This document shows, piece by piece, positions 516 to 59,939 of a stretch of 64,000 bases of DNA. Source of the stretch: Petrosia ficiformis (taxonomy: Eukaryota > Porifera > Demospongiae > Haplosclerida > Petrosiidae); NCBI GenBank assembly GCA_947044365.1, contig OX345638.1, forward strand, positions 6,457,201 to 6,521,200, read 5' to 3'. Position 1 is the first letter of the stretch; each line of letters starts with the position of its first letter. A program made the translations under genes and the position numbers. The notes beneath the pieces are model-generated. The model did no database searches and was not told the origin of the DNA. It saw nothing but the letters and a program-made list of their open reading frames with translations.

Positions 516-1129
516 CTGTAGTGGATGTTTCAAGGAATCTACTGATATATATTTTTCTTGTATTACAATCTATTCCAGTTAGTGTTACTGGATGTCTCAA
601 ACGTTCCTCAGGATCACAGGATAGTTTACCCCATACAGTAATCAAACAAGATGGAGGAATGGGAAGATCACTTGATCCAAATAGATCAGCATCTCTCTTC
701 ATAAGCTGAGATGATAGAAATTGTTAAGACATGTAATACAGATTTCAATTTCAACAGATAATCATTATTAATAGTATCTTACTCTCAGAGGTTCCTTGTG
801 AGGTTCAATACTCCATCCTCTATACGCTACTTGTTCCATACTAACACTATCAAGTTCAATATATCCATTCACTGGATTCAGGAATGAAAATCTAATCATC
901 TCGTCCTTTTCAGCACTATGATGATTCTCTTTAATATACTATAAAATGATAATAAAATTAATATTAGTGAATATAAGAATACGTTATTATAATTAAATCA
1001 CCTCTAGGAATACCTTTACATTTTGCACCACCATAAATGTCATTTTCCATTTGTTACATCCTGCCCTCTCATAATAAATTCCACCAGTGTATATATTATC
1101 AGGTACACCAGAGTCATTAGGAACTTGTA
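516..1129 (-). CDS. Post-ZU5 exons 32-34
   Basis: 1129-1002 (phase 1-0; contains [18 protein letters not shown]), 938-783 (phase 0-0; [20 protein letters not shown]...) and 705-516 (phase 0-1; [20 protein letters not shown]...). Positions and phases match the series after ZU5 in the neighbouring gene (NKWKMIFTITKDEKSFVE, then HVSQK..., then IERTV...). Intact donor GTATAT at 515. No stop codon is seen, so the gene continues to the left of the window. Confidence 0.65.
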
Positions 1130-4100
1130 CTATATGTAGAATATACAAGCATTTAATACTTCATTAGGTAACAATATTTATATACCTCCTTTTGAGATAG
1201 AGAGATGTGTTTGTGTTTCCCCATCAGTATCACTACTAGGATCCTTATCCTTATCAACATTGCCAGTGGACGGAACATCAACTAAAATTATAATAGATAA
1301 TAGTACAGTATTCATGACATTCTATTAATATCCTAACCATGTCCTGATGAGGGTGGTGTTTTATCATCAGTATTGCTACTAGAATGCTCTTCAGTATTGT
1401 CAACATCAACTAATAATAATTATAATAAACAATAAAAAAAGCATTGATAATATACTAATAATATCCTAACCATGTCCTGATTTGGACTGCGTTTTACTAT
1501 CAGTATCACTACTGGTATCCTTATCTTCTGATGAAGAGTCAGTATTAGACACATCACTCTGAACATCACCTATAATTATTGTAATTGATATTTAAACACT
1601 GTTATTAATATTATAATATCCTAACCATGTTCAGATGTGGTTTGTATTTCATTATCTGTATCACTACTAGGTGGATCTTGGTCTTCTGAAGGTAGGTCAA
1701 TATGAAATTGAACATCAGCTAATAAATATTTAAATACTGTTATTAATTAATATTATAATATCCTAACCATGTTCAGATGTGGATTGCGTTTCACTATCAG
1801 TATCACTAGTATCTTCTACATCAGATGAGATGTGTGAATTACGACCATTAGTCTTCTTACCAATGCCCATTATACAAAACTTGGAACGAACTATCATTCC
1901 ATACTGACTATTAGTATAGAATTTACCACCATTTATGAACTGGAACTTGTATGGTGGTACTGACTCATCTATAGGTGCTGTTATGAAACTGAGATATTTA
2001 AACTGTCGTGAACTCTTCAGATAGACACAGTGTTGTATTAGTAATTTCACAGGCTGGAGGTACTCTTCAGGAAATGAGATGACATATAAAGCACTCACAA
2101 GCTCCATTCCTTCGGGAAACTGGAATTTACCCCCAACAAGAGCTTTGATAAGCACTTGTGATGGCAGGATAGTACTTTCTGGGAAATACATCTTAAACCC
2201 ATAATCTCCCCAATCCAGAGTGTTCCTTTTAATATGAAACACCTTCTGCTTAGTTATATGAAGATCAGGACCATCTATATAATAAAAATGAGATTATGAC
2301 AACAACAGAGATTAGTATATTAATTATATAACATCAATTCTAACCTGGTATAGAAACGATGTCACTGGACCTTTGTGGTACAAGTGATGATGTCATTCTA
2401 GTTTCCTCTAAATGCTTCATTTCCTGTATAGAAATTTCAAGTTCCCTTATTCTCTCTCTCTGCATTTGTAATTCCTCCAAATGCGGTTCATTATTCTGCT
2501 CTGTATTCTGTAGTTCATCTGTTTGTGAAGTTTTATCAACCACTGTTGTGTGTAGTGACTTCACTTCTATAATGAGAGAATACGTTTTGAAGTTCTGTTA
2601 ATTCCAAACAGGACATGACTTACCTGACTTTAACTCTTTTGTTTTAATTTCCAACAAAGTCTGTAGTTCCTCTACTATATATACGTATATATAATTATTA
2701 CAATAAGATCAATGTTAATAAAGTATTGACTATACATTATTAACAAATATATACATATGCACACTGCACAGTAGTTATTATAATATGCTCTGCTCAAAGA
2801 TTTAAAGAAAGATTTTAAAATCTCAGATTTATCCTACAACATTTTTATATAGATTACTACTCCACCCACAAGAAATAGAGGAAAGGTTATAAAATCTCAG
2901 AACAGGTTTATGGAAGTTAATAAAGTATGTGCAGTAGTCAACTGGGCACATGCTTCTAGTTTATAGGGTCATTCTGAGTGTCATGAGATAGTGAAAATGT
3001 GTATTGTATTATAATACAAATGATATATACACATTTTGCTGATATAATATGTTAGACATATTCTCTGTACCAAGTGAAAATTAGGATTATGTATGATGTC
3101 AGTGTACCTGTCAGAAAGACTATGCACTGGATGTTGGACAGATTAATTTACATCCAGACTTCTAACTGGATATTTTTACAGAACAAATCAAACATTGAGA
3201 ATGTTATTAGTTATTAACCTGTTGTTTCTAGAGTCTGTGAAACCGAGCTTTTGATCTCTGTTTGATGAACAGCATCTTGATCTGTGAAATATATATATAC
3301 AAGAATGAATTATAATTAAGTAATTGTTGGGCATAGCATAATATGACATAAAGAAGTAAGTTTGAACTAGCTGTATGAATGTGATTTAAGGATGAGTTAT
3401 GTTGCCAGCAGGGTTGGGGCGAGGTACATTGGTACTTACATTTGTATACTTAAGTGCACTGAAGTACATATTTTTTAATTACTTGTACTTATACTTAAGT
3501 CTTTTTTTAGTTTTAGCAATGTACTTGTACTTGTACTTAAGTAATGGGTTAAGTACTTCATGTACTTAATGTACTTATAAGTAATTTGAAGTACATTTTA
3601 ACTCCTTTTTAAGTACAATTTGTACATGTGCATTTGTCATGATTTGTGAAACTGAAAAAACAGAATTTACTGAAATGATTACATCTGCACTAGAAAGAAG
3701 TGTACCAGCTACAGTTTCTACTGTAAGTAGTACTGAAGATACAACTGATCCTCCCCCATCAAAAAAAGCCAAATCATTATTTAGTTTCATGCTTGAGCCA
3801 TCCGCACAATCTGAGTCTCAGTCTACCTCTTTATCAAACGAACTAGACAACTATCTGCAGTCCTTGAGTGTTGCAATGGAGGTGAATCCCATCGATTTCT
3901 GGAAAAAAGAAAAAACAAAGTACCCTCAATTATCAAAGTTGGCAAAGGAAATGTTAGGAGTACCATCTTCGTCAGCACCTGTAGAGCGTCTTTTTAGTAT
4001 CGCCGGTAAACTTTTTAGACCTGAACGTTGTAATTTAAAGGACTTGTGATTTGAAGAATTGATGTTCATTCGATGTAATAATAATTAAATGTAAAACTTT

Positions 4101-7100
4101 GAGTTATTAAAAAGTAAAAAATGTGAAAATTGTGAAATGTACTTGTACTTGCACTTAAGTACATATCACTGTACTTGTACTTGCACTTAAGTACATATCA
4201 CTGTACTTGTACTTATACTTAAGTACATATCACTGTACTTGTACTTGCACTTAAGTACATATCACTGTACTTGTACTTATACTTAAGTACATATCACTGT
4301 ACTTGTACTTATACTTAAGTACTATATTAAAAGGTGTCATGTACTTGTACTTATACTTAAGTATTTTTGTCAAAGTACTTGTACTTTACTTAAGTACTTT
4401 TCAAAGTACTTCGCCCCAACCCTGGTTGCCAGTATAATAATTATTATAGTATTAACTAAGTGACTATTTACAGTTCAGCCTAATTCAATATAAATTTCTA
4501 TAATGTTAAATCAGAGACTAATACATATACCTATACCAAAAGTACATAAGAGATGGAGAGTGTCTAATGATGCATATAGCTGTAAAGTAATGTGGTTTTC
4601 TTTCGTATCGTGTTTAAGATGCCATTATGTAAAGCATGTGACAATAGTATTGGAGTAACTGAATTTAATGACGTCACAAATTATACTGTTACTTTACACA
4701 CAGTATTTCAATGGCTGTATGCATCCTTCGACACTCTCCTTGTCTTATGTACTTTTGGTGTAGGTATATCTATTTAATAACTAAACACACTGGATATCTT
4801 TGTGATATTGTAAGATAGCTAGGAATATTTCTCTGCTAAATGACAAATCACATCTATTAGTGGATGAAACAAAGATTTTAAAAAATCAGTTTATAGATGA
4901 TATATACCATAATAATTATTACTTTGAAAATGAATTACGTATAATCTCATAGAGTCTATATCTATTATTGGATATGAACATAGTATATGTAGTTACATAG
5001 GTATTATACATGCCTGGTTTTGACAGTCCATGTGAACTTAGTGGAACAGGCTCCTGAATGTCTAACTTTGGTATCTTTAGACTGAATTGGGAATCATAAT
5101 TATCTTCCTGACGTCTCTTCTCTCCTACACACTCTGGAGTGATATGCTGATCTTCTTTTCTTTTCTTATTAGACTCAACAGCGTCTTCATGTGGTCTCTT
5201 CATTGAGTATCTGTAATTATAATTATAGCTGACAAACTATGGAGTTTTGTACATCACAAATTCGTGTAATATAAATATGTCTGAATTAGTTTACTTATAG
5301 GCCTTTTTTACACACTATGGTGGAAATTAAATGTGTAAATAAAGTTTCAAATCACTTACTCTATATCCATTTCGGTATGTGCTTGAGCATCTTCACAACC
5401 TAATATATGATGAAATGTATATTTGGTATAGTGATGCATATACCAGTTATATGTGTAAAGTAACATGACTCTTTCTTTGATATCATGATTATGTGATCCC
5501 ATTATACAATATATGTGGCTATAGTATCAATGTAACTGATGCCACAAAGTATATACTGAAATAAGGTAATGTGGCTTTCTATCATATCGTGCTTCTGATG
5601 CATGTGATTCATTATGTAAAGCATGTGACAATAGTATTGGAGTAACTGAATTTAATGACGTCACAAATTATACTATTACTTTACACACAGTATTTCAATG
5701 GCTGTATGCATCCTTCGACACTCTCCTTGTCTTATGTACTTTTGGTGTAGGTATATCTATTTAATAACTAAACACACTGGATATCTTTGTGATATTGTAA
5801 GATAGCTAGGAATATTTCTCTGCTAAATGACAAATCACATCTATTAGTGGATGAAACAAAGATTTTAAAAAATCAGTTTATAGATGATATATACCATAAT
5901 AATTATTACTTTGAAAATGAATTACGTATAATCTCATAGAGTCTATATCTATTATTGGATATGAACATAGTATATGTAGTTACATGTACATAGGTATTAT
6001 ACATGCCTGGTTTTGACAGTCCATGTGAACTTAGTGGAACAGGCTCCTGAATGTCTAACTTTGGTATCTTTAGACTGAATTGGGAATCATAATTATCTTC
6101 CTGACGTCTCTTCTCTCCTACACACTCTGGAGTGATATGCTGATCTTCTTTTCTTTTCTTATTAGACTCAACAACGTCTTCATGTGGTCTCTTCATTGAG
6201 AATCTGTAATTATAATTATAGCTGACAAACTATGGAGTTTTGTACATCACAAATTCGTGTAATATAAATATGTCTGAATTAGTTTACTTATAGGCCTTTT
6301 TTACACACTATGGTGGAAATTAAATGTGTAAACAAAGTTTCAAATCACTTACTCTATATCCATTTCGGTATGTGCTTGAGCAGATTGTACATCTTCACAA
6401 CCTAATGTATGATGAAATGTATATTTGGTATAGTGATGCATATACCTGTTATATGTGTAAAGTAACACGACTCTTTCTTTGATATCATGATTATGTGATC
6501 CCATTATACAATATATGTGGCTATAGTATCAATGTAACTGATGCCACAAATATTTCATTTAGCTATACTGTTAAATGTGAGCAAAGTATAGCTAGTAACC
6601 ATGGCAACCATCACTATATGTGAACAAAAAAAATGACACTGAACTACACATTCTCAGTGCTTCCAACTACACAGATTTTTCACCTTTATACAAAATGAAT
6701 ATGGATTATGGAAAATTACACTGACAATACAGATAGTGCATGTGCTCTGACTAAAAACATGGAGTGCTTTCAGTAATACTAGCTCAGCATCTAGTAAAGC
6801 CTCTAGTAGTGAGTCTACAGCTAGGAATGTAAACTGTGTTACAGTTAGTGATACTGATGTCAGTGTACCTGCCAGAAAGAAGACTATGCGCTAGATGTTG
6901 GACAGACTAATTTAGTCTGGCCACATCCAGGCTTCTAACTGCATATTTTTACAGAACAAATCAAACATTGAGAATGTTATTAGTTATTAACCTGTTGTTT
7001 CTAGAGTCTGTGAAACCGAGCTTTTGATCTCTGTTTGATGAACAGCATCTTGATCTGCGAAATATATATATACAAGAATGAATTATTGATCATTACACTA

Positions 7101-9633
7101 TACATGTAATTAAATTAAGTAAATGTTGGCCATAGCACAATATGATATAAAGAAGTAAGTTTCAACTAGCTTGATTTAAGGATGAGTTATGTTGCCAGTA
7201 TAATAATTATTATAGTAATAACTATTTACAGTTCAGCCTAATTCAATATATATTTCTATAATACATATACCTATACCAAAAGTACATAAGAGATGGAGAG
7301 TGTCTAATGATGCATATAGCTGATATATGTAAAGTAATGTGGCTTTCTTTCGTATCATGTTTAAGATGCCATTATGTAAAGCATGTGACAATAGTATTGA
7401 AGTAACTGAATTTAATGACGTCACAAAATATACTGTTACTTTACACACAGTATTTCAATGGCTGTTTGAATCCTTCGACACTCTCCTTCTCTTACAATCT
7501 ATTGTCTATATGCTATAAAGTATAAAGCACAAAAAATGTAACTAAACACACTGGATATGTTTGTGATATTGTAAGATAGTTGGAATATTTCTCTGCTAAA
7601 TGACAAATCACAAATCACAAAACACGTGTACAAGTGTATTAGTGGATGAAACAATGCAAACTAAACTAAAAATGACTTCACGAAGTACACTCTGGTTTCA
7701 TCCAAAGGGTTAGACTATCATTATACTTGTGATAACATTTATATAAAACCAAACAAAGTGAGTCATTAATTATTACTACTTCTGGTTGAACCTTGCCTGA
7801 TGAGAAGGTTTACTCAAAGCAATATGAAAATGCATCTTTTGTAAAAAAAAAAAAAAAACAATAATGTTTCAGGATCATTACATAATTATTCCAAAGAGTT
7901 TCGTGGTGACTATTTCCATCATATAATTATCATGCAATATAATTCATTGATTTACCTTCAGTTATATTTGACATGTGGCTATAGCATCAACGTAACTGAT
8001 GCCGCCACAAAGTATATACTGAAATAATTTATGCAAACATGTTATATAAGTGCCTGCCACATTACTTTACACACAGTATTTCAATGGGTATATGCTTCCT
8101 TTGACATTCTCCTACTCTGTATCCATATAATATACACATGTACATGTATTACATAATTATAATATATATATTTGACAACCATTTCATGTGGTTAGGTGTA
8201 TGTAATATATATACCATGGCTTCGAGGGATATATGGCGAATATAAGACCCGAGCACCGAGATATTGCGAGGGTCTTATATTCACCCTATATACCGAGAAG
8301 CCATGGTACATATAATATATTCTATAGCTAACAGAAACATCAAAGAAGAACAGGACAATGGACACGAGTAACAGGCTGACACACCTTACACTTTCAGCGA
8401 TATGGGGCGAATAGTTCCTGGGAGAAACGCCCATCTATTGGTTCTTTTTTTTAAGAGACAAAGAGAGCTTCTTTTGTGTGTTTACTTGTCGACATAGCCT
8501 TCATTCTCTGTAGACTTTTGGTGACTAGATCGACTGCGCATGTGCATGACGTCATACCAGGGATGATATATCCCTGCTGTACTCGTGAACGAACTTTGAT
8601 GTGAACCAGACGCCCACAGTTTGTAAATAGTAAATACGTTGCGGTATATATAAGTACGTCGATGTATTTACAAATAAGTCAACGTATTTATTAAATACTA
8701 TTTTGACCTCAATGGTACTCCATAAATACCTACATGTATAGGTGTGCATCAATGAAAACAATGAATGGTAGGAACATGCAACTCCCACGTAAATAATTAA
8801 CAAGAAAAATGTGTCTATAATGCTTTGTGATTACTATGTGTATGAAATATTGCTGATGGCACTGGTATCTACCTTTCTGTGTACTCAAATACTGGGGTCT
8901 GAAGAGGTACATGTAAGTGTAACTCCAGTCTAGGTACACAGATCTTTGATGAAACTGAAGTACTCTTTCAAGGTTCTAAATGATGACCTCCTCGTGTCTG
9001 TAACTCTTGCATTAATTGACCAAACCCCTTGGAATGACGTAACTTATATGTGACCAAAAAACCACACTTGTGACACATAATCAAACACTTGTTATTCAGC
9101 CATTTTATAAAGGACACCAATGATATTTGGTATCTAGGAGAAGCACTAATTGGTTTTCCTGTTTGCCATATTTCATTGGCTTCATGTAAAAATGGCTGAA
9201 TAGCAAGTGTTTGAAGGTAAGCATTTGTTATTATGCGCCACAAGTGTGGTTTTCCAAAATTGGGTCACATATATAAATACCGTAGAATCTCGAATATAGG
9301 CGGGATCCGACTATAAGTGTATACTTTCTTACAAGTGCATATCAGCTTCCTTTATTTAACACTCGAATACAAGCGGATCGAGCCGACCATAGCGACCGAT
9401 AGCTCGATATTATCCTACAATTGGAGACCAGACTAACTTGTATACATGATGTCCTCTTACTACACCAGAAAAAAACGAAGCTCTCATCCTCCTTACCCGG
9501 TATTCTTTAGTAGTCCGACATGTGACGTTGACACTGCTGACACGTGCCTAGATACCGCAGCCACACCCTTCAATTAATCTTTTGCAGTGCATACCGTTTA
9601 TAAGCGCATACGCCTATATTCGAAATTCTACGG

Positions 9634-9667
<34 letters not shown>

Positions 9668-20223: not shown

Positions 20224-20256
<33 letters not shown>

Positions 20257-20843: not shown

Positions 20844-20876
<33 letters not shown>

Positions 20877-23800
20877 TTTATTTGTTGTATCATCAGTAGG
20901 AGAGTAGCATACAAGAAAACAAATGTTACCAACTAAATTGCATGCAATTATATACTCACCTCTTTCAGGAACAGCTCTATACCAGGCCAAACGAGGCTGC
21001 CCTTCAGTATCTTCTACTCTCTTATTAGTTTCACAGCACTGAAGTAGAGTAGGATGATCCTGTGCAACTACAGCTATATGGGTAAGTGGTTCACAAGGAC
21101 AAGGACAGAAGAAACCTGGCTGAGGTTTGAGATTCCCTTTTATAGCAGCCACTACAGATTCTTTGATGGCACATCTCACCTTGTTTATGTCGTCAGCAAA
21201 TTCACTAAATAACTGGATGTAGTCTGGAGTTTCCATGATGGCAAATTCTCCTTTCATTTCGAGATGTTCAATAATCATAAAGTTCGAATAGTTTAATTGG
21301 TTTCGTTTACGATTTATTAACCATTGGCCGGAAAGAAGATCTACAATTATGGAACAGAAAAGGCCCATAGGTAAACCTTTCTCGAAGTAAAAAAGCATTG
21401 GCTCGGTAGTGGATTCAGGAAAGGGATTGATATCTGTAGTATCACATACTGGTAGTAGTGCGGGAATGAAGAAATGATTTTCATTGTTTTCGACCTTTAC
21501 TGCAATATTGAGATGCTGAAAAATGGCTAGCAATTTATTCACAAAGCGAGGAAAGCTTTTTAATATGCTAGAACACACCTTTGTCTTTCTGATGAAATCC
21601 ACTGAGGCAATACCTTCCTTAGCTAACAGCTCAATATCTGAATTGGTGTAGATGTCTAGGCTACGTGCTTGACAAACAGTAATCACTAGCTCAGTTACAA
21701 TATCAATAAGGGAGTGAATGTTGGCAAATACTATATCATCAGCTCCTGAATCAGAATAGTACAGCATGGAATTGAAGATATGGAAAAACTTGATAGCACT
21801 GACTACTTCTTCATCACTCATACCTAGCTTATGACCGAAAACCTTGCATAGTGACATATTGAGGACACCACAGCGATTCAAAGCTGCTTTTTGGATGAGA
21901 ATTTGAAAGCAGTGCCACTTCAAAGGTACTTTGACAATGTATGCTTGCTCTCGAAGCTTAAGTGCTATTTCTTCTACAACTGGATCATCGAAATTACCTT
22001 GCTTTGCTTTTCTGCCATCAACTTCATGCAAGATTTTGTATCGAGCCTCGTTTTGGTAACTGACTCGGCCATCGACTAACTTCAAAATATTTCTGAGCTT
22101 CTTTTCTTTGTCTTCAATTGTTTCTGACTTTCCATCGTACTCATCTCGATGTGTAGCTATGCCAATAATGCTTAGATCATCTGGAGGTGTAATATATTTG
22201 GAGAGAATATTATCATTCTCAATGATTGCTTTTTGTCGCTGTGAACTAGAATTTACCATTGGCAGGAGCTGCTTCAGCATTTCCTCTACTTTCAGCGAAT
22301 GCTCACTAACCTTGATTTGTCCAGTCTCCAAACACATTTCTGTTGAAGCTGGACCAGAGAGATCTTCTGCTAGATTAATCACTAACATGAGGGCTGATGC
22401 ACATGGTAGAAAAGCTGGAAGTAACTTCTGAAATTGAATTTGCCCTCCCGAATCAGTAAAATACAGCCAGCGCTCTTGAAGACTCAACTCTTGAGCTTTG
22501 ATACCTTTACTACATCTATCAAATAGCTCTTGTATAACAGCAACAGCTTCTTCCTCTTCCTTGGACAAGGCGGATGTCACTTGGAAGTTACTATTTCGTG
22601 ATATTGCTTGATCGACGATTTCTAAACGAGATGCTACTACCGAAGTGGTACCTGGAGAAGATGGAATCTTTGAAGAATTGGCTGAAGTTTGTTCCTCTTT
22701 CAAGGCAAGCATTTGTAATTCTGCTAGAATTTTTTCTTCCATGTCTTTGTTATTAACATAAGTCCAGCATTTGTCTGATTTGCCTTTACCAAATCGACTT
22801 ACAGCAATATCAGGAGCTTGAATACAGAGAGTACTGAGTTCCTTGTATGGAAGTGATAAAATGAGGGATTTGAGGGATGTTTTACCAGCACGAGCTGCTC
22901 CTTGTATGACAGCCTTGGTTATATGTGACTCGACAAAGCCATCTTCCATAGCTTTAACAAGATGTTGTCGATCTATTGCATCAAAATTATAAATGAAAAA
23001 ATATTAATTATGCAGTATATAAAATTATATACATACATGTATTGCCTTAGACAAAGTTACACATTCCACTAAATTTTAGTTAACATTTCTCCAGTATGAG
23101 CTTGCAGCATACTACATATGATTAGAAGTTACCCAACAAAATAGAAATCCAAGAATTGGGTCAATATGTTTTGATATTGAAAGCAAATTATCAAACCGAA
23201 AAATTGAAAAGAAATTCTACTTCACTAATCGAAGTAACATGTATTTTAACCTTACTATAAATTAAAAGAAAAAGTTTATTCCAGCAAAAATGAGCTAAAT
23301 GCATGAAAAGGCTCCTCCAATACTTATTAAGACCAACCACTTTACACTCAAATCTTCCTCCCTCCCCTCTCCTCCAATCTTCTAATAGCCACAAACAAGA
23401 ACATTATTGCATTACTGTTAATAGCAATGATTTATGATGTAATCTAGCATAAAGGACTAACCTATTTCTTTAAAAGGAATAGAGGGTGGAGTTGATTCAG
23501 ACTGTACAATGCCTTGAGCAGATTCTAAAAAACATAAAAATTAGCTATTAAAAAGGATTAATGATAATTAAAATTATAAAATTATGCATCCCCTCATATA
23601 GAAAACATACATGTATACTCCCAATCTTTATACATAATTATTGCAACAAGATATATTGAGAAAACAATTGTATATAGAGAAAAAAACATCCCTATGATTG
23701 CTTTATAAATTTAAGTGAAGATAAACGTATCCCTATGACTGCTTTGTGGTGTCCAGAATTCAGTAATCATGGCTGACTTTATCATGCCTGAAACACATCA

Positions 23801-26800
23801 GCCTATTATAGTTATTATTTTGATTATTTACTCTGTTTACCTTTTAAAGAACCTTGTAGAACTTTAGGAATATATTTCAGGTAGAATAGCAAGCTATTAC
23901 TTTCCAGCTTCCAGGCCCATAGCCAGACTTCCGAAATGGGGGGTGCTAAATTGGGGTACCAACTACCAAGGCTATGAGATGCACAATCAACAATGAAGTG
24001 TTAAGCTAATACCCTATTGTCACCATAGTTGCAATAAGCTGTCATGTGGTTGTCTTGCTCAGCATCAGTTATCAGTGTGACTATGTCCCAACATGTAGCT
24101 GACAACCACAAAGAATGCTCTAGTGAAGGGTGTCATGGCTCCTTATTCATAGAATCTATGTTTGAAAAGGGGGGGGGGGGGGGGGTGCTCGTGCACACCC
24201 CTGCACCCCCCCCCCCCCCCCCCCCCCCTTTAATGAAGCTTTTTATGTAGTAAAACAGTAATCACCCGAGTAAGCCATAACTGTCTATTTTCACTCATAT
24301 CTCAAAATTAATAATTATCCCAGAAGCCTGATTTTTGCAAATTCGGTCACATATAATATTATATATATATAGTTCGAACCCGTGGGAAAGCAATCATAGG
24401 GATGGCCCTACGGGCCATAACAAAGAAAAACAGTCCAGCACAATTAGCAGCAATCTGTTTTACTGTTTTACACTGTGTGGTTTATTTGTATTCGAAGTAC
24501 GTTGTTAAAAATGCAATAAATTACTGCTTTAGGCAGGACATTGACGTTTCAGTTCAAGTGGGGATCATCACCTGATTTAAGCCTAGCTAGAACACTGCTG
24601 ACATGTTACATGTATATACCTTAAATTCCATGACCTCGTTGGTCATACAAATGATACAAATATAAATCATGTTACGTAGTTATTACATACTATATGAGAC
24701 CTAATTTTGAGAAAACCACACTTTTGTGCATGCATAATAATATTGAACAAATGCTTACTTCTAAAAGCTTTTGAGCATTTTTGTAGAGGAAGCCAATACA
24801 ATTTGGTATCCAGGAAGACTGGTTAATGCTCCTCCTGGATACCAAACGTACAATTTGGGAATTTGACAAGTAAGTAAGTGTTTGTTTAAAATTATTATGC
24901 ACCATAATTCTCACATGTATATTACCTGATATAGAGCTCTGCTTTTTCAGATTTTCCAACATATTCTTATCATCACCTTGTATTACTTTATGTGATATAT
25001 CTGTTGATTGAGATGACATTTCAATATACAATAATTGGTTGGAACTTGGAAGTACATGTATAGCTACAGACCCACTGAGAGGAGGGGGATAACCCAGATC
25101 TGTTTGGAGAAGCCAATAGTTTATTATTAGTAAACAATCATGTTATAAAAAGAAGAGGAAAAAAATAACAGCACACAATTCTAAACAAACGAGTTCAAAC
25201 ACTTAAGTTAACACAAGAAATTTTGACAGAAGCACTAAAATTGAATGTTTACCCCAGGCCCAACCTGTTCTCTCATTGGCCTTGTATAGCTATTATGCTA
25301 TATATCATTATAGAGTGCCTGGAGTACATCAACTATACATTCAGTTCAATATGAAAACTTACCTATCTGATTCAATATAGTATCTGCTACTCCATTGAGA
25401 GCTGGATCATCTTGTTCCTTTAATATATAGCAAAATGACTTCAGCATTTTAGGCTCACTAGACAACTCAAGGACATGTTGAACTTCATTCAACAGTCTAC
25501 TAGCTTTTTCAAACCGGCTAAGAGATGGTTCGTTCACCATTTCATCTTTGATCTTTTCAGATATTAATCCATACGATGAGAGCTGCTTTGCTAATTTATC
25601 TGGGTTGGGTATTAGACCTAGGAGATGTGGTACGTGGGGCTTCAATATGTTGTGTGGTAGGTTGGTGCGAGATATAGTTGTTGCTGTCATTCCTATGACA
25701 CAAATGGAAATAAAACGATGGTCTCTAATCTGTGATGAATTATTCATTTATTAACTCTTATAGTATGGGTTTACACTAATCACTCTGGTTAAAGCTCATT
25801 CTCACCTACATGTACTATTACAATAATCATCACAATCATGTCCACTGATTTATATGAAGTAGAAATTAGAGTTCCACCAAAACCACATTATACCAATATT
25901 TCCGATACATATTCTAGATATAAACTGATACTGATATGAGAAACCTAATATTATGTAGATTATTCATGTTTAATTACAGTCCCACCCAACTCTTTTCGCT
26001 ACAGTTGCATTTAGACATTTTGGCTGGACAAGTCAATTTCAGACTCTCAGCCAATTCCCAGTCCAAGATATTATTCATACCAAATGATTTACTACTAACA
26101 ACAAAAGACATGCTATTTTATAAAGTCAGTATTAGGAAATCAAAAATTATCTTCATAGGTTATACGGTAAATTTAAATCCAACCTTTTTTTTAATCGATC
26201 ACTAAATAATTGCATATAATATCATATTAGAACAGATATATAATTATAGAGCTAATGGTTTTCCATGATAACGGAAAATGGATGGATACCGCCGAATTAG
26301 CAGTTTGAAATGGAATTCATTAGAATGAATGCGGGTGTTGCTCGACCCCAGCGACCTCTGTACACGTGGAGAAGTTGTGTGGCAATGGCAGCCAAGGAGA
26401 TGACTGAACCATTGCCTAAGAAAGCTAGGAGATCCACCCCTCTGGTACGAGTCAGCGCTGAAGATCGAGCAAAGCAATTCAAGACCAGAGTTGTATGCTG
26501 ATGACGGAGTACTATTTTGCCATTATTGCGATCACAGCCTTGACTTCACTCGTATCGACACAGTGAAGGACCACTTAAAGAGTAAGATGCACGCTACTAG
26601 GAAACAGGCTAAGGAAAGTAAGTCCAGCAGTACTTCTCTGTGTGGTCCTTCCACCAGCCGACAAGCGACGCTAGGCACGGTACTTAAATCGAAGGATTCA
26701 AGGGAGGAATTTGTACTAGACTATCTGAAAATGTGTACACTCGCTGATATTCCCTTGGAAAAAAACAAACAAAATACGCCCATTTTTAGAGAAGCACTGT

Positions 26801-29800
26801 AAACAGGCAGGTGCAATACCTAATGTCCCTACACTGAGAAGTACCTACGTCCCTCGCTTATTCGAATCTCACTTTTCTACACTGAAAAGTCTCCTCTGTG
26901 ACGAATATGTCAGTATCACTGCAGATGAAACCACTGATGTGTGTGACTACAGCATCTTTAATATAATTAGTAGTGTCAGAGGGAAGTCTTACCTCATTGG
27001 AGTTGTTAAAATGGATGCCTGCAACCACAGAATATTTAGTCAAGCAATTACGAAGGTAGTTAGTGAGGTTGGTATTAACTTTAACCATGTTATATCTGTT
27101 GTCACTGACAATGCTGCATATTGTAAGAACGCTTATCGAGATGTACTATCAGCTGTCTACCCAAACTCGCTTCATGTGCTCTGCATTGCCCACATTGTTA
27201 ACTTGGTATCTGAAGTTTATCATCATCACTCAGATTTTAAATACACAGCTGACCTGATTTCAATGATTAAGTCATCACTCTTTAAGAAACCAGGAAGGAA
27301 AAGCCGCTTCCTGAAGTTTCTTGGTGATTACATTGCAACCTCCCAGTAAAACTTCCTCCAGTTCCTGTATCAACAAGATGGAATTCATGGTACAAAGCTG
27401 CGTCATACCATGCTACTCGAATCCAGCTTTATGAAGCCTTCTATAAGGCTGAGAAAGCACAAGGTGTAGCAGTAGAACGGATCATTGAGATGGTAACACA
27501 CACAACTATATACCCAGAGATAAGGTTGCAACTCTATTTCATTAAAGAGAACTGTCAAAGGCTGATGGCTGTTTTGACATCATTGGAAGCGAAAGAGCTT
27601 CCACTAGCCTGTACTGTGTACAACACACTTGAAGATTTCGGGTTATATTTAAGAGCAGGTACAACTAAGACCAGTTTCGGAGAAAAAACAAATCACTTCC
27701 TACAGAATCTCCCACTTGAACAAAGGAGGGTAAAGATAAAATCATTTCAGGCAGTATTTAGCCTCTCTCTACAAAAGCTCGAGGCACACATAGACAACCT
27801 ACCTGCTTATCCTTACTACAAAGCCGTAAGGATATTCGCGACAGCTAGCAGGGCTTTTCACATGACATCAGTGACTACTGTGCCTTACCATCACTTCAAG
27901 ACCCATCTCCTTCACTTTTAGAGGAGTGGTTGATCTATGTTTAATACAATTGCGATGAGCTACCAAATCCATTACATGTAAATGACTTCTGGAAAGGTTT
28001 GCATACTCGTTTCCCCAATTTGGCTGCTATTGCTATGCAGGCAATTTGGATGCCTGTTGCTTCTGTTGAAGTGGAGCAAAGCTTTTCTCAATATAAACAC
28101 ATATTAAATGATCACTGTGAGAGTTTAACCAAGGAGAACACTAAGCGATTGGTGCTGCTTTACTACAATGGTGATATTCAGGGACATTTTTAGACAAACT
28201 TACCATCATTAGTACTTGTTCAGTATCATTTTTGTTTAAACATTTTCTGAAACGGATTGTCTGATAAAAACTATTCTGAAGCAGAATTAATGTAACGGAA
28301 AATTGTTTTTTTATAAACAGAAAATCATTGGCTCTATATATAGTATGGCTTTGAGGTGTGTATTAGCAATATCAGACGTGAACCATAAGATACTAAATAT
28401 TACTCCAGATAGCAGACTAACCTACATGTACCTAATTTACTGGATTTACATATACATGTAAAATGGCTAAAAATATTTGTCCAGTTAAAGAGAGGTACAT
28501 GTGTAAGCATCTTCAATCATTAAATACATGATTCATAAATCACTAATCACAATAGAAAATATTTTCACCTTGTTCTTCTACTGATATATTTTCTGTAGGC
28601 TTGATTTTCAGTGGCTCTGGTTGTCTGGACTGCAAGAAATAGTATATAATAATTATTATTACATTCTTCTTAATTATTAGTATGAGCATTATTATTATTA
28701 CTACTATTACTGTGATGTCTAACATTACAAGTTTACAGTTGGATTATCTGGTGAAAAATTATAATTACTTTTGTTTTTATAAAAAATACTTTGTATTTAC
28801 AATAAATCATAACGATAATATGAAAAACCCATAATAACTGTTTTCATATTCTTCTACTGGATTTAGTGCAATACGCAAAATTTTCAACCTAACTACAAGA
28901 TACTTAATCCTTTCACAGTTGAATTATTAACTGACAATGTGGATGTTAATAACCATACGTTATGTTATTGTTAATATAACATACCATAGTTGTTTGTAAA
29001 GTATCGTGCAGTGTTTTGTCACCGACGTTTTCATCTGTAAATAAATGATAATGGATAAGTAGCATGAGTCTTTAGATTTGAACAAATTACATACAAATGC
29101 ATTTTTATGAAAAGACAATTATATCTACAAGGCAGTGCTGCATACAGAAAATGAAGCTAGGGGGGGGGGGGGGGCAATATGAGACTTTAGAGAACGTAGG
29201 GTGGGCAACGATGTTACCATGTGCCGTAAACACATATTGGCAAACTAAGGGACTTTGTGTGACATTTTGGGAAACACTTGTGTATTTTTCTGTAACAGTT
29301 GAAATTTTGGCCATGCATTTCCTGATTAACTACTCTAGAGTCATTCTGTATGACGAAAACTACAGCAATGTCAGCACACAGTTCAGCATTGCACCATTTA
29401 ACAATTAGACTACATGTATACAGATATAACATGAAAAAATCTCACATGTACTACATGTACAATGTAACATGTAGTATTTACTTTTACGTCACACTCATGA
29501 AAGTCTAGGGGGGGGGCAGGAGCTCCCCTTGAGGGGGCAAATGCCACCCCCCCCCCCCCCCCCCCAACATCTCTAAATGCAGCCCTGAAAACCCAGTATA
29601 TACACATGTATATCATGATTAAAATATCTAGCAGCATCTCTGTGTGTCAGTGAAGATATTCATGAAGTTTAAAATTCATGTCTGACAGAAACTGACACAA
29701 TTTTCAGTATTCACTTGAAAACGTAGCTTCTGTTGTTCTGTTGTATATTTACACATATAAATGTATATGTATGTAAAATGATTGATTGCTTTCCCATGGG

Positions 29801-31279
29801 TTCAAACTATACATGTATATTTATATTCTTGCATCACCTACGTGAAGCAAGTATGCATTGTATACATAGTTAAGGAAGATGCATCATTCTGGCTCTATCA
29901 ATTAATGGCACGGCATGTAATAGAATGCGTGCTCGAGCTCTACACAGTACTGACTAGCAAGAAGAAAGAAAGCTGCTTGGAGCTTACATAGAAACTGAAA
30001 CTAATAGCTAGCTATTCGACCTAAAAAATAATCCTAAAGTTCTACAAGATCCTTTAACCTTTAGAGCACTGAGCCTGTATTTCAAAATTCTTCCCATTTC
30101 CAACACTGGCGACTCTATTGCATATAATGTGGCCATCGTTCACTTTCTCTACCGAAAAACCATCAACTTTTTTTGCCACATTCAGCAGCTTGTGCCTGAC
30201 GCCAATTACAAGCATTTGGACAGCTTCGTGTAGCTAGGAACAGACGGCGAACCACGTAGGGGTGAAATGTCACATATATGTGACATCAGTGCTCTAAGGG
30301 TTAAAAGGTAAGGAGAGTAGATCTAGATATCATAATAATAACTGCAATAGGTTGTTGTGTATCTGGCATGATAAAGTCAGCCATGATTACTGAATGCTGG
30401 ACAACACAAAGCAATCATAGGATACCTTTTTCTTTATATATCTTGTTTCTAGTGTTATGAATAACCTCCTGAAAATAATACTGTTTACTGTTCTATTTTT
30501 GCGATATGAACAGGGTTGTATCTTCATCTACCATTCAAAATGCATAATACCAAACAAATGACTGTAACTTTATGTACAAAATAGCTGAATAATGAACATT
30601 AAAGTATCAATGCAGGGATGGATCCAGAATGGAATTATGGGGTGTGCTAAGAGGTGTGGGTTGAACGTAAATGGCAGTAGAACTTGAGGGAAACAGAAAG
30701 GTATTTAAAACTACTGGTCTAGGGACGGAAAACAAGAATTACATTATAAGTTATTTTCTTGTTTAAGTATACTTACTACCTGTATAGCAGGAATGGCCAA
30801 AAAAGGGGGTAGGGCTATAGCTAAATCCACCTCTGCAATGACTATAGAGACTCATCGAAAAAAAAAGTGAAAGGGTTTACAACATGCCTTCATTATAAGG
30901 TCAACTTGCTGTCACCATTAACATCTTGCATTTCATACCTTTTTCCGGTGTGGCTTGAAGTTCTAAAATGTTGTTAATATGAAATGCTGTAGGAAGGCCC
31001 ACCACTCCACTGTCAGGAAGTTGTGTAATACAGCGACATGAAGGACACATTACAACATATCTGTCCTGCTGTGTTAATGATAACATAAATATCTTTAGCA
31101 GTGTAGCTATAGTAATCACATACCTCTAGTTCTTGTGGTAATTGTTCAATACAAGTTGTACAAAATGAATGATGACAAATTAGCACTTTTGGATTAATAT
31201 ATCTCTGCAAACAGACACCGCAGGTTATATTCTCTTCCAATTTCTGATTGAATCCAGTAATAGGAGTTTGTTCAGCCAT
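516..31279 (-). CDS. Giant multidomain gene: RING, CARD-like, two ROC-COR GTPases, Death, ZU5 (34 exons, 3' end outside window)
   Basis: The exons chain without a phase conflict: 31279-31124, 31065-30939, 29034-28985, 28629-28569, 25692-25363, 25099-24926, 23524-23462, 22972-20960, 18862-18773, 17562-15397, 14898-14850, 14485-14430, 13986-13675, 12559-12520, 12134-11938, 11062-11000, 10696-10657, 10333-10137, 7054-6992, 6401-6353, 6203-6007, 5399-5360, 5210-5014, 3281-3219, 2674-2624, 2566-2345, 2274-1768, 1718-1626, 1569-1471, 1409-1338, 1281-1186, 1129-1002, 938-783, 705-516. The sum is 8,407 nt, about 2,802 codons, still open at 516. The families point to an intracellular signalling or death adaptor: RING suggests ubiquitin ligation, ROC-COR a GTP switch, and the death-fold and ZU5 domains protein assembly. 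Joining everything into one mRNA is inference from splice phase; it could be two or three adjacent genes. Individual exons are more certain than the whole chain. Confidence 0.62.
1186..1718 (-). CDS. Four acidic Ser/Asp repeat exons (28-31)
   Basis: 1718-1626 (93 nt), 1569-1471 (99), 1409-1338 (72) and 1281-1186 (96), all phase 1-1. Each begins A/G/V-DV and carries SSDTD or SSNTDD followed by T/S/Q-rich residues; three end in E/G-H-G at a GTTAGG donor, the last ends in KGG at GTATAT. They are tandem copies of the 3' tail of exon 27. The product is a low-complexity acidic linker with many Ser/Asp-Glu sites resembling casein kinase 2 targets. Confidence 0.65.
1768..2274 (-). CDS. ZU5 domain exon 27
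   Basis: 507 nt, phase 1-1. The ZU5 domain spans most of the exon: [40 protein letters not shown], then a [20 protein letters not shown] segment. It aligns well by eye with the two ZU5 exons at 46.4-48.9 kb (LVKAIIGGDFILPPDCYLVS, GPPYEFKEMEGGYF). ZU5 domains occur in UNC5 receptors, ankyrins and PIDD, often near Death domains. The exon ends in an acidic Ser/Asp tail ([20 protein letters not shown]) that starts a series of repeat exons. Confidence 0.85.
2345..2674 (-). CDS. Coiled-coil exons 25-26
   Basis: Exon 25 (2674-2624, 51 nt) reads [17 protein letters not shown]. Exon 26 (2566-2345, 222 nt) begins [20 protein letters not shown] and contains a Glu/Leu/Arg-rich heptad segment ([20 protein letters not shown]), a probable coiled coil that would mediate oligomerisation. 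Both exons are phase 1-1 with donors GTAAGT and GTTAGA. They lead straight into the ZU5 exon. Confidence 0.7.
3219..3281 (-). CDS. 63-nt linker exon 24
   Basis: Phase 1-1, acceptor TTTCACAG, donor ACAACAG/GTTAAT. It reads [20 protein letters not shown], identical in protein to exon 19. The hAT insertion at 3409 lies in the intron just upstream. Confidence 0.55.
3409..4424 (+). mobile_element. hAT element with TIRs, 8-bp TSD and transposase C-terminal remnant
   Basis: The ends are inverted: CAGGGTTGGGGCGA at 3409-3422 and TCGCCCCAACCCTG at 4411-4424. They are flanked by identical 8-bp duplications GTTGCCAG at 3401-3408 and 4425-4432. Subterminal arrays of GTACTTGTACTTAAGTAC-type repeats fill about 3420-3620 and 4137-4410. 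Inside, an open frame from 3639 to 4049 ends with the hAT dimerisation region ([33 protein letters not shown]), which lacks the N-terminal zinc finger and catalytic core. It is therefore a deletion derivative that cannot transpose on its own. It sits in the intron before exon 24 of the giant gene. Confidence 0.95.
4519..4782. repeat. Foldback (inverted-repeat) element, copy A
   Basis: The left arm (about 4525-4590, ACCAAAAGTACATAAGAGAT...) is the reverse complement of the right arm (about 4690-4770, ...CTCTCCTTGTCTTATGTACT). Related pieces occur at 5600-5770 (right arm), 7262-7500, 8060-8110, 12955-13110 and 15100-15150. The length and structure fit a foldback MITE. Confidence 0.75.
5014..5399 (-). 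CDS. Short exon pair, copy 5 (exons 22-23)
   Basis: Exon 22 (5399-5360) is 40 nt, a 9-nt in-frame deletion relative to copy 4. Exon 23 (5210-5014) is 197 nt with the same GC-type donor; unspliced, it ends at a stop at 4919. Nearly identical to copy 4 in exons and introns, so the duplication is recent. Confidence 0.52.
6007..6401 (-). CDS. Short exon pair, copy 4 (exons 20-21)
   Basis: Exon 20 (6401-6353, 49 nt, phase 1-2) reads [15 protein letters not shown]. Exon 21 begins at 6203 ([20 protein letters not shown]...). If it ends at 6007 it is exactly 197 nt, like copies 2 and 3, and restores phase 1, but the donor is then GC (CCAG/GCATGT). Without that splice the frame runs on to a stop at 5906. 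The protein is Lys/Glu-rich with KRKE and EKRRQE clusters that could act as nuclear localisation signals. Confidence 0.52.
6992..7054 (-). CDS. 63-nt linker exon 19 (copy of exon 24)
   Basis: Phase 1-1, acceptor TTTCGCAG, donor ACAACAG/GTTAAT. It reads [20 protein letters not shown]. It is the same as exon 24 at 3219-3281; flanking intron sequence is also copied. Confidence 0.55.
7262..7500. repeat. Foldback element, copy B
   Basis: Same two arms as the 4519-4782 element: ACCAAAAGTACATAAGAGAT at about 7272 and the inverted arm ending near CACTCTCCTTCTCTTA at 7480-7494. The single GTTGCCAG at 7191-7198 just before it is the unoccupied counterpart of the hAT target site. Confidence 0.65.
8206..8318. 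repeat. Long imperfect hairpin
   Basis: The left arm ATATATACCATGGCTTCGAG...GAATATAAGACCC pairs with the right arm GGGTCTTATATTCACC...GAAGCCATGGTACATATA. The arms are about 50 bp with a loop of roughly 12 bp. It is isolated in the window and probably the remnant of a foldback transposon. Confidence 0.75.
9055..9255. repeat. Foldback MITE, ACCACACTTGTG family
   Basis: Left arm AAACCACACTTGTGACACAT...TATTCAGCCATTTT; the right arm is its inverse AAAATGGCTGAATAGCAAGT...ACAAGTGTGGTTTT. Further family members lie at about 24713-24908 and 42130-42292, plus a fragment near 11405-11470. Confidence 0.75.
9280..9633. mobile_element. 354-bp MITE with 23-bp TIRs and TA target site
   Basis: Left end CCGTAGAATCTCGAATATAG at 9280; right end CTATATTCGAAATTCTACGG to 9633, inverted with one or two mismatches. 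Flanked by TA on both sides (9278-9279, 9634-9635), as for Tc1/mariner/pogo elements. There is no coding capacity. Confidence 0.85.
10137..10696 (-). CDS. Short exon pair, copy 3 (exons 17-18)
   Basis: Exon 17 (10696-10657, 40 nt, phase 1-2) reads [13 protein letters not shown]. Exon 18 (10333-10137, 197 nt, phase 2-1) reads [20 protein letters not shown] and continues to [18 protein letters not shown]. It is very similar to copy 2; donor CTCAAA/GTAATA. The surrounding introns are also alike (the region from about 9.9 to 10.7 kb resembles 11.75 to 12.6 kb), so a whole genomic block was duplicated. Confidence 0.58.
11000..11062 (-). CDS. Linker exon 16
   Basis: 63 nt, phase 1-1, acceptor TATCTAG, donor TTCAG/GTATTA. 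It reads [20 protein letters not shown]. Its length equals that of the 63-nt exons 7, 19 and 24, which suggests a shared origin, although the sequences are weakly similar. Confidence 0.5.
11100..11240. repeat. Repeat fragment with G-run/C-run hairpin
   Basis: GAGGGGGGTGGCATTTGCCC followed by a C-run at 11140-11165. The same motif in opposite order recurs near 29510-29560 (GAGGGGGCAAATGCCACCCC), so it is a dispersed repeat end rather than a gene. Confidence 0.45.
11938..12559 (-). CDS. Short exon pair, copy 2 (exons 14-15)
   Basis: Exon 14 (12559-12520, 40 nt, phase 1-2) reads [13 protein letters not shown]. Exon 15 (12134-11938, 197 nt, phase 2-1) reads [20 protein letters not shown] and continues with [20 protein letters not shown]. 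The donor is CTCAAA/GTAATA. If not spliced, the frame ends about 18 codons later, so an alternative terminal form is possible. No known domain. Confidence 0.58.
13675..13986 (-). CDS. Death domain exon (exon 13)
   Basis: 312 nt, phase 1-1 (acceptor TTTTTTAG, donor TCAT/GTAAGC). It encodes a Death domain of about 85 residues: [20 protein letters not shown] opens the fold, followed by a [14 protein letters not shown] helix with the conserved Trp and a [20 protein letters not shown] segment, the usual W-x-x-L-x-x-A-L end of Death domains. Such domains bind other Death domains in receptor or caspase-activation complexes. It sits between short exon-pair copies 1 and 2. Confidence 0.85.
14430..14898 (-). 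CDS. Short exon pair, copy 1 (exons 11-12)
   Basis: Exon 11 (14898-14850, 49 nt, phase 1-2) reads [16 protein letters not shown]. Exon 12 (14485-14430, 56 nt, phase 2-1) reads [19 protein letters not shown]. The same two-exon pattern recurs four more times downstream; here the second exon is only 56 nt instead of 197. Donors are GTAAGT and GTGTGT. The peptide is basic and polar with no known fold. Confidence 0.6.
15397..17562 (-). CDS. Second ROC-COR GTPase module (exon 10, 722 codons)
   Basis: Large exon, phase 1-1 (acceptor TTTACAG, donor TTCAAAG/GTTAGT). P-loop GPPRVGKTC about 40 residues in; [15 protein letters not shown] (G3) near residue 230; VVATHKDLV (G4, THKD) near residue 325. The COR region begins around [13 protein letters not shown] and includes [14 protein letters not shown] and [18 protein letters not shown]. 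The C-terminus has a Cys/His-rich patch ([20 protein letters not shown]). It is a clear relative of the exon 8 module but far diverged, so the duplication is old or the two were recruited separately. The frame would stop just past the donor (TTCAAAGGTTAG), which supports a splice there unless this is a terminal exon. Confidence 0.9.
17563..18772. other. Intron between exon 9 and the second ROC-COR exon
   Basis: 1.2 kb, AT-rich, with scattered ACATGTACATGT motifs. No exon, tRNA or element with ends could be supported. Confidence 0.5.
18773..18862 (-). CDS. Short coiled-coil exon 9
   Basis: 90 nt, phase 1-1, acceptor AATTATAG, donor GTTA/AGTACT read as GTACTG (weak). It reads [19 protein letters not shown] followed by [10 protein letters not shown], a heptad-like Leu pattern. 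It resembles exons 26 and 25 at 2.3-2.7 kb (EVKSLHTT..., [11 protein letters not shown]), so this piece has been duplicated within the gene. The weak donor is the main doubt. Confidence 0.5.
19034..19557. mobile_element. 524-bp hAT-type MITE
   Basis: Ends TAGGGCTGGGTGGT (19034-19047) and ACCGCCCACCCCTA (19544-19557) are inverted with two mismatches. Perfect 8-bp target duplication CTCCACTG at 19026-19033 and 19558-19565. The interior is AT-rich and non-coding. Confidence 0.92.
19601..19680. repeat. 80-bp perfect palindrome, no spacer
   Basis: Positions 19601-19640 are the exact reverse complement of 19641-19680 (40-bp arms, centre GATTAATC). A single arm-like copy (GGGTCAATATGTTTTGATAT...) sits at about 23158-23185 in the intron before exon 8, whose flanks resemble the flanks here. 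Confidence 0.95.
20164..20305. repeat. (CA)n microsatellite
   Basis: About 140 bp of CA repeats with CG and CAAA interruptions; a second (CA)n tract of about 35 bp lies at 20840-20876. Both are in the intron after exon 8. Cys-Val reading frames through them are artefacts of the repeat. Confidence 0.95.
20960..22972 (-). CDS. First ROC-COR GTPase module (exon 8, 671 codons)
   Basis: A single large exon, phase 1-1 (acceptor GCAATAG, donor AAAGAG/GTGAGT). The ROC GTPase shows a P-loop GAARAGKTS about 25 residues in, a G3 element [11 protein letters not shown] (DxGGQ) about 170-180 residues in, and a G4-like THRDEYD near residue 270. A COR-type region follows ([12 protein letters not shown] onwards, [20 protein letters not shown]). 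This is the domain order of ROCO proteins, where COR mediates dimerisation and ROC is the switch. No kinase or leucine-rich repeats are attached. A Cys-rich stretch ([10 protein letters not shown]) lies near the end. The long G1-G3 spacing is typical of invertebrate ROCO relatives. Confidence 0.9.
22973..23461. other. Intron before first ROC-COR exon, related to the intron before exon 9
   Basis: The segment about 23040-23265 resembles about 18960-19740 once the MITE and half of the palindrome there are removed (shared CATTTCTCCA, ACATATGATTAG/ACATGATTAG, GAAATTCTACT..CACTAATC). Confidence 0.6.
23462..25099 (-). CDS. Linker exons 6 and 7 before the first GTPase
   Basis: Exon 6 is 25099-24926 (174 nt, phase 1-1; begins [12 protein letters not shown], ends [10 protein letters not shown]). 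Exon 7 is 23524-23462 (63 nt, phase 1-1; [18 protein letters not shown]). Acceptors are AAACAG and TTTTAG, donors GTAATA and GTTAGT. They contain no known domain and are rich in Ser, Gln and Pro, as expected for a flexible spacer. The 1.4-kb intron between them (23525-24925) carries long G and C runs and repeat fragments. Confidence 0.58.
24160..24235. repeat. G-run and C-run pair
   Basis: About 16 G at 24168-24183 and about 24 C at 24207-24229, separated by TGCTCGTGCACACCCCTG. Other homopolymer tracts: G at 29161-29174, C at 29547-29566 and C at 32949-32973. The Pro- and Gly-rich reading frames here are not genes. Confidence 0.9.
24713..24908. repeat. Foldback MITE, ACCACACTTGTG family, second copy
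   Basis: AAAACCACACTTTTGTGCAT on the left and the decayed inverse ...ATTATGCACCATAATTCTC on the right, with a central inverted TGGTATCCAGGA / TCCTGGATACCA. Lies just 3' of exon 6 on the minus strand. Confidence 0.6.
25363..25692 (-). CDS. CARD-like death-fold exon (exon 5)
   Basis: 110 codons, entered in phase 1 after CATAG and left in phase 1 at ATAG/GTAAGT. Residues about 20-105 of the exon have the helix spacing of a CARD-type death fold: a leucine-rich first helix near HLLGLIPNP, then [20 protein letters not shown], an [10 protein letters not shown] helix, and [14 protein letters not shown], which matches the F-C-x-x-L signature of CARDs. CARDs form homotypic complexes in death and immunity signalling. 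A DED or Death assignment cannot be excluded by eye. Confidence 0.6.
26247..28336 (+). mobile_element. hAT transposon with broken BED-finger transposase
   Basis: Imperfect inverted ends: TAGAGCTAATGGTTTTCC at 26247 and GAAAATCATTGGCTCTA ending at 28336. The coding remnant spans 26310-28193 on the plus strand: a BED zinc finger ([20 protein letters not shown], then KSKMHATRK), a catalytic part with the DETTD and VVTDNA motifs, and the C-terminal dimerisation region ([17 protein letters not shown]). At least four frameshifts or stops (near 26487, 26802, 27349 and 27921) break it, so it is inactive. It lies antisense in the intron between exons 4 and 5 of the giant gene. A clean 8-bp target duplication was not found. 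Confidence 0.85.
28569..29034 (-). CDS. Linker exons 3 and 4 of the giant gene
   Basis: Exon 3 (29034-28985, 50 nt) begins after TTTACAG, reads [17 protein letters not shown] and is phase 1 to 0. Exon 4 (28629-28569, 61 nt) reads [20 protein letters not shown] and is phase 0 to 1. Both have good acceptors and GT donors (GTATG, GTGAAA) and carry the frame from the RING exons to the CARD-like exon. They have no recognisable domain and look like a polar linker. A broken hAT element fills most of the next intron. Confidence 0.6.
30939..31279 (-). CDS. RING finger N-terminus (exons 1-2)
   Basis: Start codon at 31279-31277 (MAEQTP...). Exon 1 is 31279-31124 (52 codons, GAG/GTATGT donor) and exon 2 is 31065-30939 (acceptor CAG, donor AAAAAG/GTATG). 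The joined protein shows a C3HC4 RING at about residues 20-65: CGVC, then CHHSFCTTC, then CPSC across the intron. This is the pattern of RING E3 ubiquitin ligases at the N-terminus of TRIM-like proteins. No B-box follows. An upstream in-frame Met six codons earlier (MYTPGV) is possible; MAEQ was chosen because it begins the conserved part. Confidence 0.88.
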
Positions 31280-59624: not shown

Positions 59625-59939
59625 CTGTGTTACAAGAATAACTATTTATACTTCTATTCCGTTCCTTATTTTAATGTATTATTTGAGACTGAGCCTGACA
59701 AAATCACCTTTACAACAATGTTTTACATAATTCATGCATGTAAGGCTTCATGTACTGCAATATCGTTCCCTTAATATAGCTTAGGTTGTTTACTATTAAT
59801 TTAATCCCTGCAATTTCATTTAAGTTTGTTGGTAACCAAGTTATCTTTACATCAAAAACACAGTCGCAGTTTGTGATGAAACGTCGATATTATATTCACT
59901 TATGGAAAGTATCATGGAATGATAGCTGACATAGCAGGT

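Follow-up and report, generated by a model that had tools for sequence, protein, structure and literature searches.

The demosponge Petrosia ficiformis carries, on contig C3 of its 191 Mb genome, a locus at which exons for a RING domain, a CARD-like domain, two ROC-COR modules, a Death domain and a ZU5-like domain follow one another on one strand, which raises the question of whether they encode one protein or several. The window, that is the whole stretch of DNA analysed, is a 64 kb piece of that contig. The locus is probably one gene, with the order RING-CARD-ROC-COR-ROC-COR-Death-basic repeat linker-ZU5-C-terminal domain, that belongs to a shuffled ROCO/death-fold family and for which a switch mechanism is proposed below; a single gene with a single predicted transcript is probably the arrangement that the exons imply. 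A preliminary description of the window had reached a single protein through splice-phase agreement, and this remains the better reading, although it is the structure of paralogous loci, not phase, that argues for it. Most of its domain assignments stand. Its further claim, a new type of signalling scaffold, was too strong, since the locus is one of a large shuffled family in which double ROC-COR arrangements recur, and because Trichoplax ROCO proteins that combine two GTPase domains had already been noted in the account given in PMC4104024.

Gene model

Thirty-three minus-strand exons, placed by hand between 31279 and 508, give 2,770 codons and a stop with zero internal stops, and are mutually in phase at every junction. 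GC rather than GT donors are present at E21 and E23, and two introns are long, E18-E19 at 3,082 bp and E23-E24 at 1,732 bp. The features, all of the hand-built model unless placed outside the gene, are as follows.

31279-31124, minus: E1, start ATG, C3HC4 RING together with E2
31065-30939, minus: E2, C3HC4 RING together with E1
29034-28985, minus: E3, linker exon, open and in phase
28629-28569, minus: E4, linker exon, open and in phase; copy in L058 at 85%
26404..27921, plus: remnant of a DUF659-type transposon within intron E4-E5, outside the gene (PF04937, 42.3 bits)
25692-25363, minus: E5, CARD-like exon, phase 1-1
25099-24926, minus: E6, linker exon; copy in L058 at 100%, in L056 at 96% over 46 of 57 residues
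23524-23462, minus: E7, linker exon
22972-20960, minus: E8, ROC-COR 1 exon (ROC1), by homology to ROC2
18862-18773, minus: E9, optional and coiled-coil-like, in the ROC1-ROC2 interval; end approximate, donor weak
17562-15397, minus: E10, ROC-COR 2 exon (ROC2), PF16095 match
14898-14850, minus: E11, linker exon in the ROC2-Death interval, kept in L055 and L057
14485-14430, minus: E12, linker exon in the ROC2-Death interval, kept in L055 and L057
13986-13675, minus: E13, Death domain exon, PF00531 match just under cut-off
12559-12520, 12134-11938 and 11062-11000, minus: E14, E15 and E16, basic linker exons
10696-10657, 10333-10137 and 7054-6992, minus: E17, E18 and E19, basic linker exons
6401-6353 and 6203-6007, minus: E20 and E21, basic linker exons
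5399-5360 and 5210-5014, minus: E22 and E23, basic linker exons
3281-3219, 2674-2624 and 2566-2345, minus: E24, E25 and E26, linker and coiled-coil-like exons
2274-1768, minus: E27, ZU5-like exon, ZU5 part about 2274-1859
1718-508, minus: E28-E34, exons encoding acidic repeats and the C-terminal domain, TAA stop at 510-508

The preliminary description counted 34 phase-consistent exons; 33 of these join without a stop or conflict, the 34th (E9, at about 18862-18773) is optional, and the consistency is no more than chance would give. Of 32 introns, 23 are phase 1, five phase 2 and four phase 0, and 56% of random pairings within this pool are compatible. Because phase 1 predominates and the exons were chosen to fit, phase consistency is a weak argument for one gene and was dropped as proof of it.

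Exons E14-E23 are repeated basic linker exons with near-identical internal copies. Near-identity is seen between E20/E21 and E22/E23 (5014-7054) and between E19 and E24 (the latter at 3219-3281), and the basic stretches of these exons could act as nuclear signals. E9 matches the same stretch of L057 as E25/E26. In profile scans Death was the sole Pfam match in E11-E24, and E28-E34 gave none over cut-off.

Domains of the predicted protein

The RING encoded by E1 and E2, described earlier from its Cys/His pattern, is borne out by a PF00097 match of 27.0 bits (cut-off 21) over profile positions 1-40 of 40, with a full set of C3HC4 zinc ligands, and the paralogue L059 has both RING exons (98%). 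A Pfam scan of E1-E8 detected no B-box, and the TRIM order of RING, B-box and coiled coil was not found. The RING is, by its sequence, a putative ubiquitin ligase.

The CARD-like label given to E5 holds at the level of predicted fold. The AlphaFold2 model (pLDDT 86.9) has six helices, and among its 15 best PDB matches 13 are titled CARD, the other two being the Apaf-1-caspase-9 holoenzyme and an entry called 'unknow protein'; the best reached E 0.12 with a TM of about 0.6, and none reached E 0.001. E5 itself has no Pfam match, one relative matches PF00619 at E 0.05, and a profile search of the PDB placed a kinase first (E 0.1), followed by CARD11 (E 0.39). The model thus suggests a six-helix death fold of the CARD type, with weak support from sequence. 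Twelve copies of E5, the target included, lie in the C3 cluster at 88-100% identity.

Two P-loops with DxGGQ elements had been reported, and both are present. Each ROC-COR translation, read by eye, contains the motifs of a ROC G domain: a P-loop, a DxGGQ and a THxD-type G4 motif. The P-loops read GAARAGKTS and [19 protein letters not shown], accompanied by THRD/THKD (P-loop regions: ROC-COR 1 exon, [18 protein letters not shown]; ROC-COR 2 exon, [18 protein letters not shown]). The assignment of two ROC/COR modules is firmer for the second: ROC2 matches COR-A (PF16095) at 46.2 bits (cut-off 35.3) with Pfam Roc below threshold (16.9 against 27), and ROC1 has neither a Roc nor a COR match in the profile scan. 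ROC1 aligns to ROC2 at E 2e-23 with 24% identity over 423 columns and is by sequence a homologous ROC-COR, its COR being assigned by that homology alone. ROC2 retrieved nothing from the PDB by sequence at E up to 1, and Pfam scans of E1-E8, E10, E11-E24 and E25-E34 found no kinase.

Among the best 120 of 193 ROC1 relatives, the named proteins are P0062 and P0097 of Amphimedon queenslandica. A protein search with E1-E13, using words from residues 130-1830, gave a single match, P0001; this is a weak negative because P0062, a ROC1 relative of fitting length, exists. P0001 has a ROC2-like open frame in which a long insert, hydrophobic and membrane-like, separates the P-loop from DxGGQ, at the place where ROC2 is hypervariable; the insert might be an unspliced intron.

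Death and ZU5 had been called clear in sequence. Read in its own open frame, E13 matches PF00531 at 22.0 bits (E 1.8e-4), just below the cut-off of 22.6, and within a longer linker segment it scores 18.6 bits against the same cut-off. For ZU5 the evidence lies in the relatives: E27 gave an empty Pfam scan, a poor model (pLDDT 45.8) and, as a profile against the PDB, no ZU5 structure. In a family alignment of 11 sequences including the target, eight of them chosen from the 150 listed matches, seven match PF00791, one of them just over cut-off (21.2 against 21), and the target does not. E27 is thus identified as ZU5 only through its relatives, and it shares 30-33% identity with two ZU5-like exons upstream in the window. 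No UPA match was found in a Pfam scan of E25-E34, and Death precedes ZU5, so that the ZU5-UPA-Death order is not the one observed. Near the end of the ZU5 alignment, one position is S or C in every one of the 11 sequences, preceded by F in eight, Y in two and S in one; the site reads HFS in both window neighbours and KFC in the target. By the account in PMC3210808, CARD8 and NLRP1 undergo self-cleavage at SF/S where ZU5 ends, and by analogy self-cleavage is a possibility in the target family.

The two ZU5-like exons belong to a same-strand neighbour at 46377-58197 (minus), where one matches ZU5 at E 0.14 and the other has no match; their ends read HHFS, like autocleavage motifs. The same neighbour has a Death exon over cut-off (29.5 bits) and a TRADD-N-like exon under cut-off (E 0.019).

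A large, shuffled family

The target gene is a member of a large, young, exon-shuffled ROCO/death-fold family in its own genome. Searches of that genome found the same modules repeated in shuffled order. At least 150 COR-A matches were obtained, every one over cut-off (150 scored of 357 candidates), with at least 150 matches each for the CARD, Death and ZU5 exons. Merging ROC1, ROC2 and ROCx (a third ROC-COR type) entries at 1.5 kb gives at least 177 distinct ROC-COR loci. Scoring covered 62 of 506 first-look candidates for ROC2, 66 of 486 for ROC1 and 65 of 597 for ROCx; the count uses 61 of 93 rows for ROC2, 61 of 69 for ROC1 and 65 of 72 for ROCx, the rows omitted appearing to be second pieces of exons already entered.

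Fifteen ROC2 copies, one of them (6536857) partial, lie on the same strand in a cluster at C3:5.90-7.05 Mb, and what precedes them varies. In the target an intact ROC1 lies 3.4 kb upstream, and in L013/L056 and L016/L058 an intact ROCx lies at about 0.7 kb, with the order CARD-E6-ROCx-ROC2 in L056 (gap about 0.72 kb) and L058. The ROCx of L012/L059 lacks its first 85 or so residues and therefore has no P-loop, and L011 and L017 keep only ROCx tail remnants. No upstream ROC was seen in L014, L019, L021/L057 or L024/L060, or over the roughly 1.1 kb covered in L020. The order RING-CARD-ROC occurs at six C3 cluster loci, the target included.

A second ROC-COR upstream of ROC2 thus recurs, formed from other ROC-COR types, and each such pair is, by its sequence arrangement, a candidate single transcript like the target. 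C11 has 37 ROC-COR loci, with 11 neighbouring pairs whose starts are less than 6 kb apart. Three junctions were read there: L083 has a phase-1 donor and acceptor flanking about 1.25 kb, the second copy of L084 is truncated, and L085 (C11:2407900-2410000) has a caspase exon between two ROC-COR exons (Peptidase_C14, 42.1 bits, cut-off 21.4). The idea that a double ROC-COR is unique to the window was dropped, as consecutive ROC-COR exons recur on C3 and C11. The module exons, which are phase 1, are duplicated, swapped and lost within the family, and this family-wide shuffling is of more interest than the single protein. Another shuffled order, seen at L045 and L046 (C3:5.883 and 6.105 Mb), places a CARD-like exon 745 bp upstream of a ZU5 exon.

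One gene or several

The junction at which a single gene is most readily doubted is the 3.4 kb interval between the ROC-COR exons. A RING-CARD-ROC-COR1 gene could end within it and be followed by another that begins at ROC-COR2, or close to it, and runs on to ZU5, an arrangement we consider unlikely. It accords with RING-CARD-ROC1 at C3:6991026-6982020, where no ROC2 match precedes the next RING, and with ROC1-Death and ROC1-ZU5 neighbours on C1, from which it follows that ROC1 needs no ROC2. In 13 of the 14 cluster copies (L020 has lost it) an in-frame ATG closely precedes the ROC2 acceptor and could be the start of a separate gene, the optional E9 sits in the interval, and candidate initial exons occur in all five aligned copies of the ROCx-ROC2 intron, within a degenerate copy of the ROCx tail. 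Also against one gene, ROC1 is reduced to a tail remnant in three sibling copies (L010, L015/L055 and L018, the last with a COR-A match in a 617-aa frame about 5.4 kb up) and degenerate in a fourth, beside the partial ROC2 copy.

Splice-site conservation nevertheless opposes a break at this point. ROC2 keeps its phase-1 acceptor and its donor in 14 of 14 full cluster copies, and the ROC1 donor is kept in both paralogues read (L081 and L082); therefore neither ROC exon looks terminal. In L055, L057 and L060, ROC2 lies directly behind the CARD exon, and no intact ROC separates them. Exons that could end or begin a gene are also scarce: in a simple scan of seven large introns, the ROC1-ROC2 intron ranked lowest in density of terminal-like exons (0.59 per kb) and second lowest for initial-like ones (0.29 per kb), and its four AATAAA compare with 3.2 expected.

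One gene also has to be weighed against a separate 3′ gene beginning at Death or just at ZU5, on the pattern of the Death/TRADD-N-like/ZU5-like neighbour at 46-58 kb. The example of that neighbour, the abundance of ZU5 exons in the genome and the length of the E18-E19 and E23-E24 introns all lend it something, but we think it quite unlikely, given that Death follows ROC2 at 1355-1411 bp in five of 15 cluster copies, with E11 and E12 conserved in between, and that one ROC2 copy (C3:6614398) has a ZU5 exon 1.3 kb away. The Death donor is intact in five of five sequences, the target included, and read-through would meet a stop in two of the five; Death as the gene end was dropped on this evidence. 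A single gene from RING to the C-terminal domain remains the preferred reading.

Constraint and variation

ROC2 is open in all 14 full cluster copies, with L024 missing the stretch directly after DxGGQ, and in-frame insertions and deletions vary between copies at residues of about 98-180. Its pN/pS is 1.06 over residues 1-30, 1.18 over residues 131-215 and 0.27-0.38 over residues 216-400. Whole-exon dN/dS is high, at 0.54-0.94 among cluster copies and 0.44-0.58 for distant copies. For ROC1 it is 0.48 and 0.51 against two paralogues, with 0.23 and 0.29 over residues 151-300.

That the locus belongs to an array of decaying pseudogenes and yields no functional product is very unlikely. The high dN/dS among young ROC2 copies, the truncated or degenerate copies nearby and the transposon pieces held in introns would fit such decay, but 2,770 codons without an internal stop, the open frame of every full ROC2 copy and the low pN/pS of the GTPase core would not.

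Across L011, L012, L013, L016 and L017, the difference between copies averages 0.6% in the ROCx-ROC2 intron and is 5.0% in the adjoining ROC2 exon. This suggests that exchange or conversion between copies explains the divergence of the exon better than selection alone, because its synonymous sites differ too.

Proposed mechanism and comparison with known systems

ROCO proteins are thought to switch between monomer and dimer with GTP, according to PMC5714945 and PMC6337361. By analogy, the product of the single gene probably works as an assembly switch that is gated by GTP and linked to a RING ligase. From their sequence, the ROC-COR modules may bind and cycle GTP and dimerise, and would serve as GTP-dependent dimerising switches; the two modules of one chain would perhaps pair as an internal pseudo-dimer controlling exposure of CARD and Death. 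Switching would free these domains to recruit partners, and the clustered RING, as output, could ubiquitylate the partners or itself. If there is one transcript, two ROC-COR switches would sit on one chain as a covalently linked natural pair, and the debated use of the ROCO dimer would become testable.

By analogy, the family is a candidate for a repertoire of switches in cell death or immunity. A broader proposal, which we hold tentatively and consider possible though doubtful, is that ROC-COR GTPases are used here as NLRs are elsewhere in animals: a receptor-like set of genes, numbering well above one hundred, in which diversity comes from phase-1 exon swaps (RING, CARD, several ROC-COR types, caspase, Death, ZU5) and from a hypervariable G-domain insert, many members having two unlike ROC-COR modules that pair within the chain, and ZU5 cutting itself at an F-[S/C] bond. 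The family would provide an example, in an animal, of a large death-fold/GTPase repertoire made by exon shuffling, to stand beside the NLRs of other sponges and the ROCO genes of brown algae.

No paper describing a sponge ROCO family with this domain order was found in the open-access literature searched. CARD or Death beside ROC-COR, as in the target, is already known from Trichoplax adhaerens, for which PMC4104024 describes at least 17 ROCO genes and at least three proteins with a second, Ras-like domain before ROC. Relative to the proteins described there, the target has a further ROC-COR as its second GTPase module, carries RING and ZU5 in addition, and comes from a clustered family with far more members. 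Brown-algal ROCO genes, proposed in PMC11378527 as immune receptors, are likewise expanded with same-phase exon shuffling, but according to that account they shuffle phase-2 LRR exons, whereas the target family shuffles whole domains, mostly in phase 1. DAPK1, as presented in PMC6337361, shares Death behind ROC-COR; in the target no kinase or ankyrin repeats were detected, and RING, CARD, a second ROC-COR and ZU5 are present. PIDD, UNC5 and FIIND proteins, as outlined in PMC3210808, also combine ZU5 with a death-fold domain, but in the target Death comes before ZU5, UPA was not found, and the position aligned with FIIND-type cleavage reads KFC, not SFS. The Amphimedon Death/TRADD-N expansion described in PMC8195603 is a comparable sponge family with many unique death-fold architectures, centred on TRADD-N where the target family is centred on ROC-COR.

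Four transposase pieces lie in the window, at 3585-4049 (plus), 26404-27921 (plus), 36398-37051 (minus) and 58748-59629 (minus); they are hAT dimerisation, DUF659, weak hAT RNase-H and IS1595/ISXO2-like.
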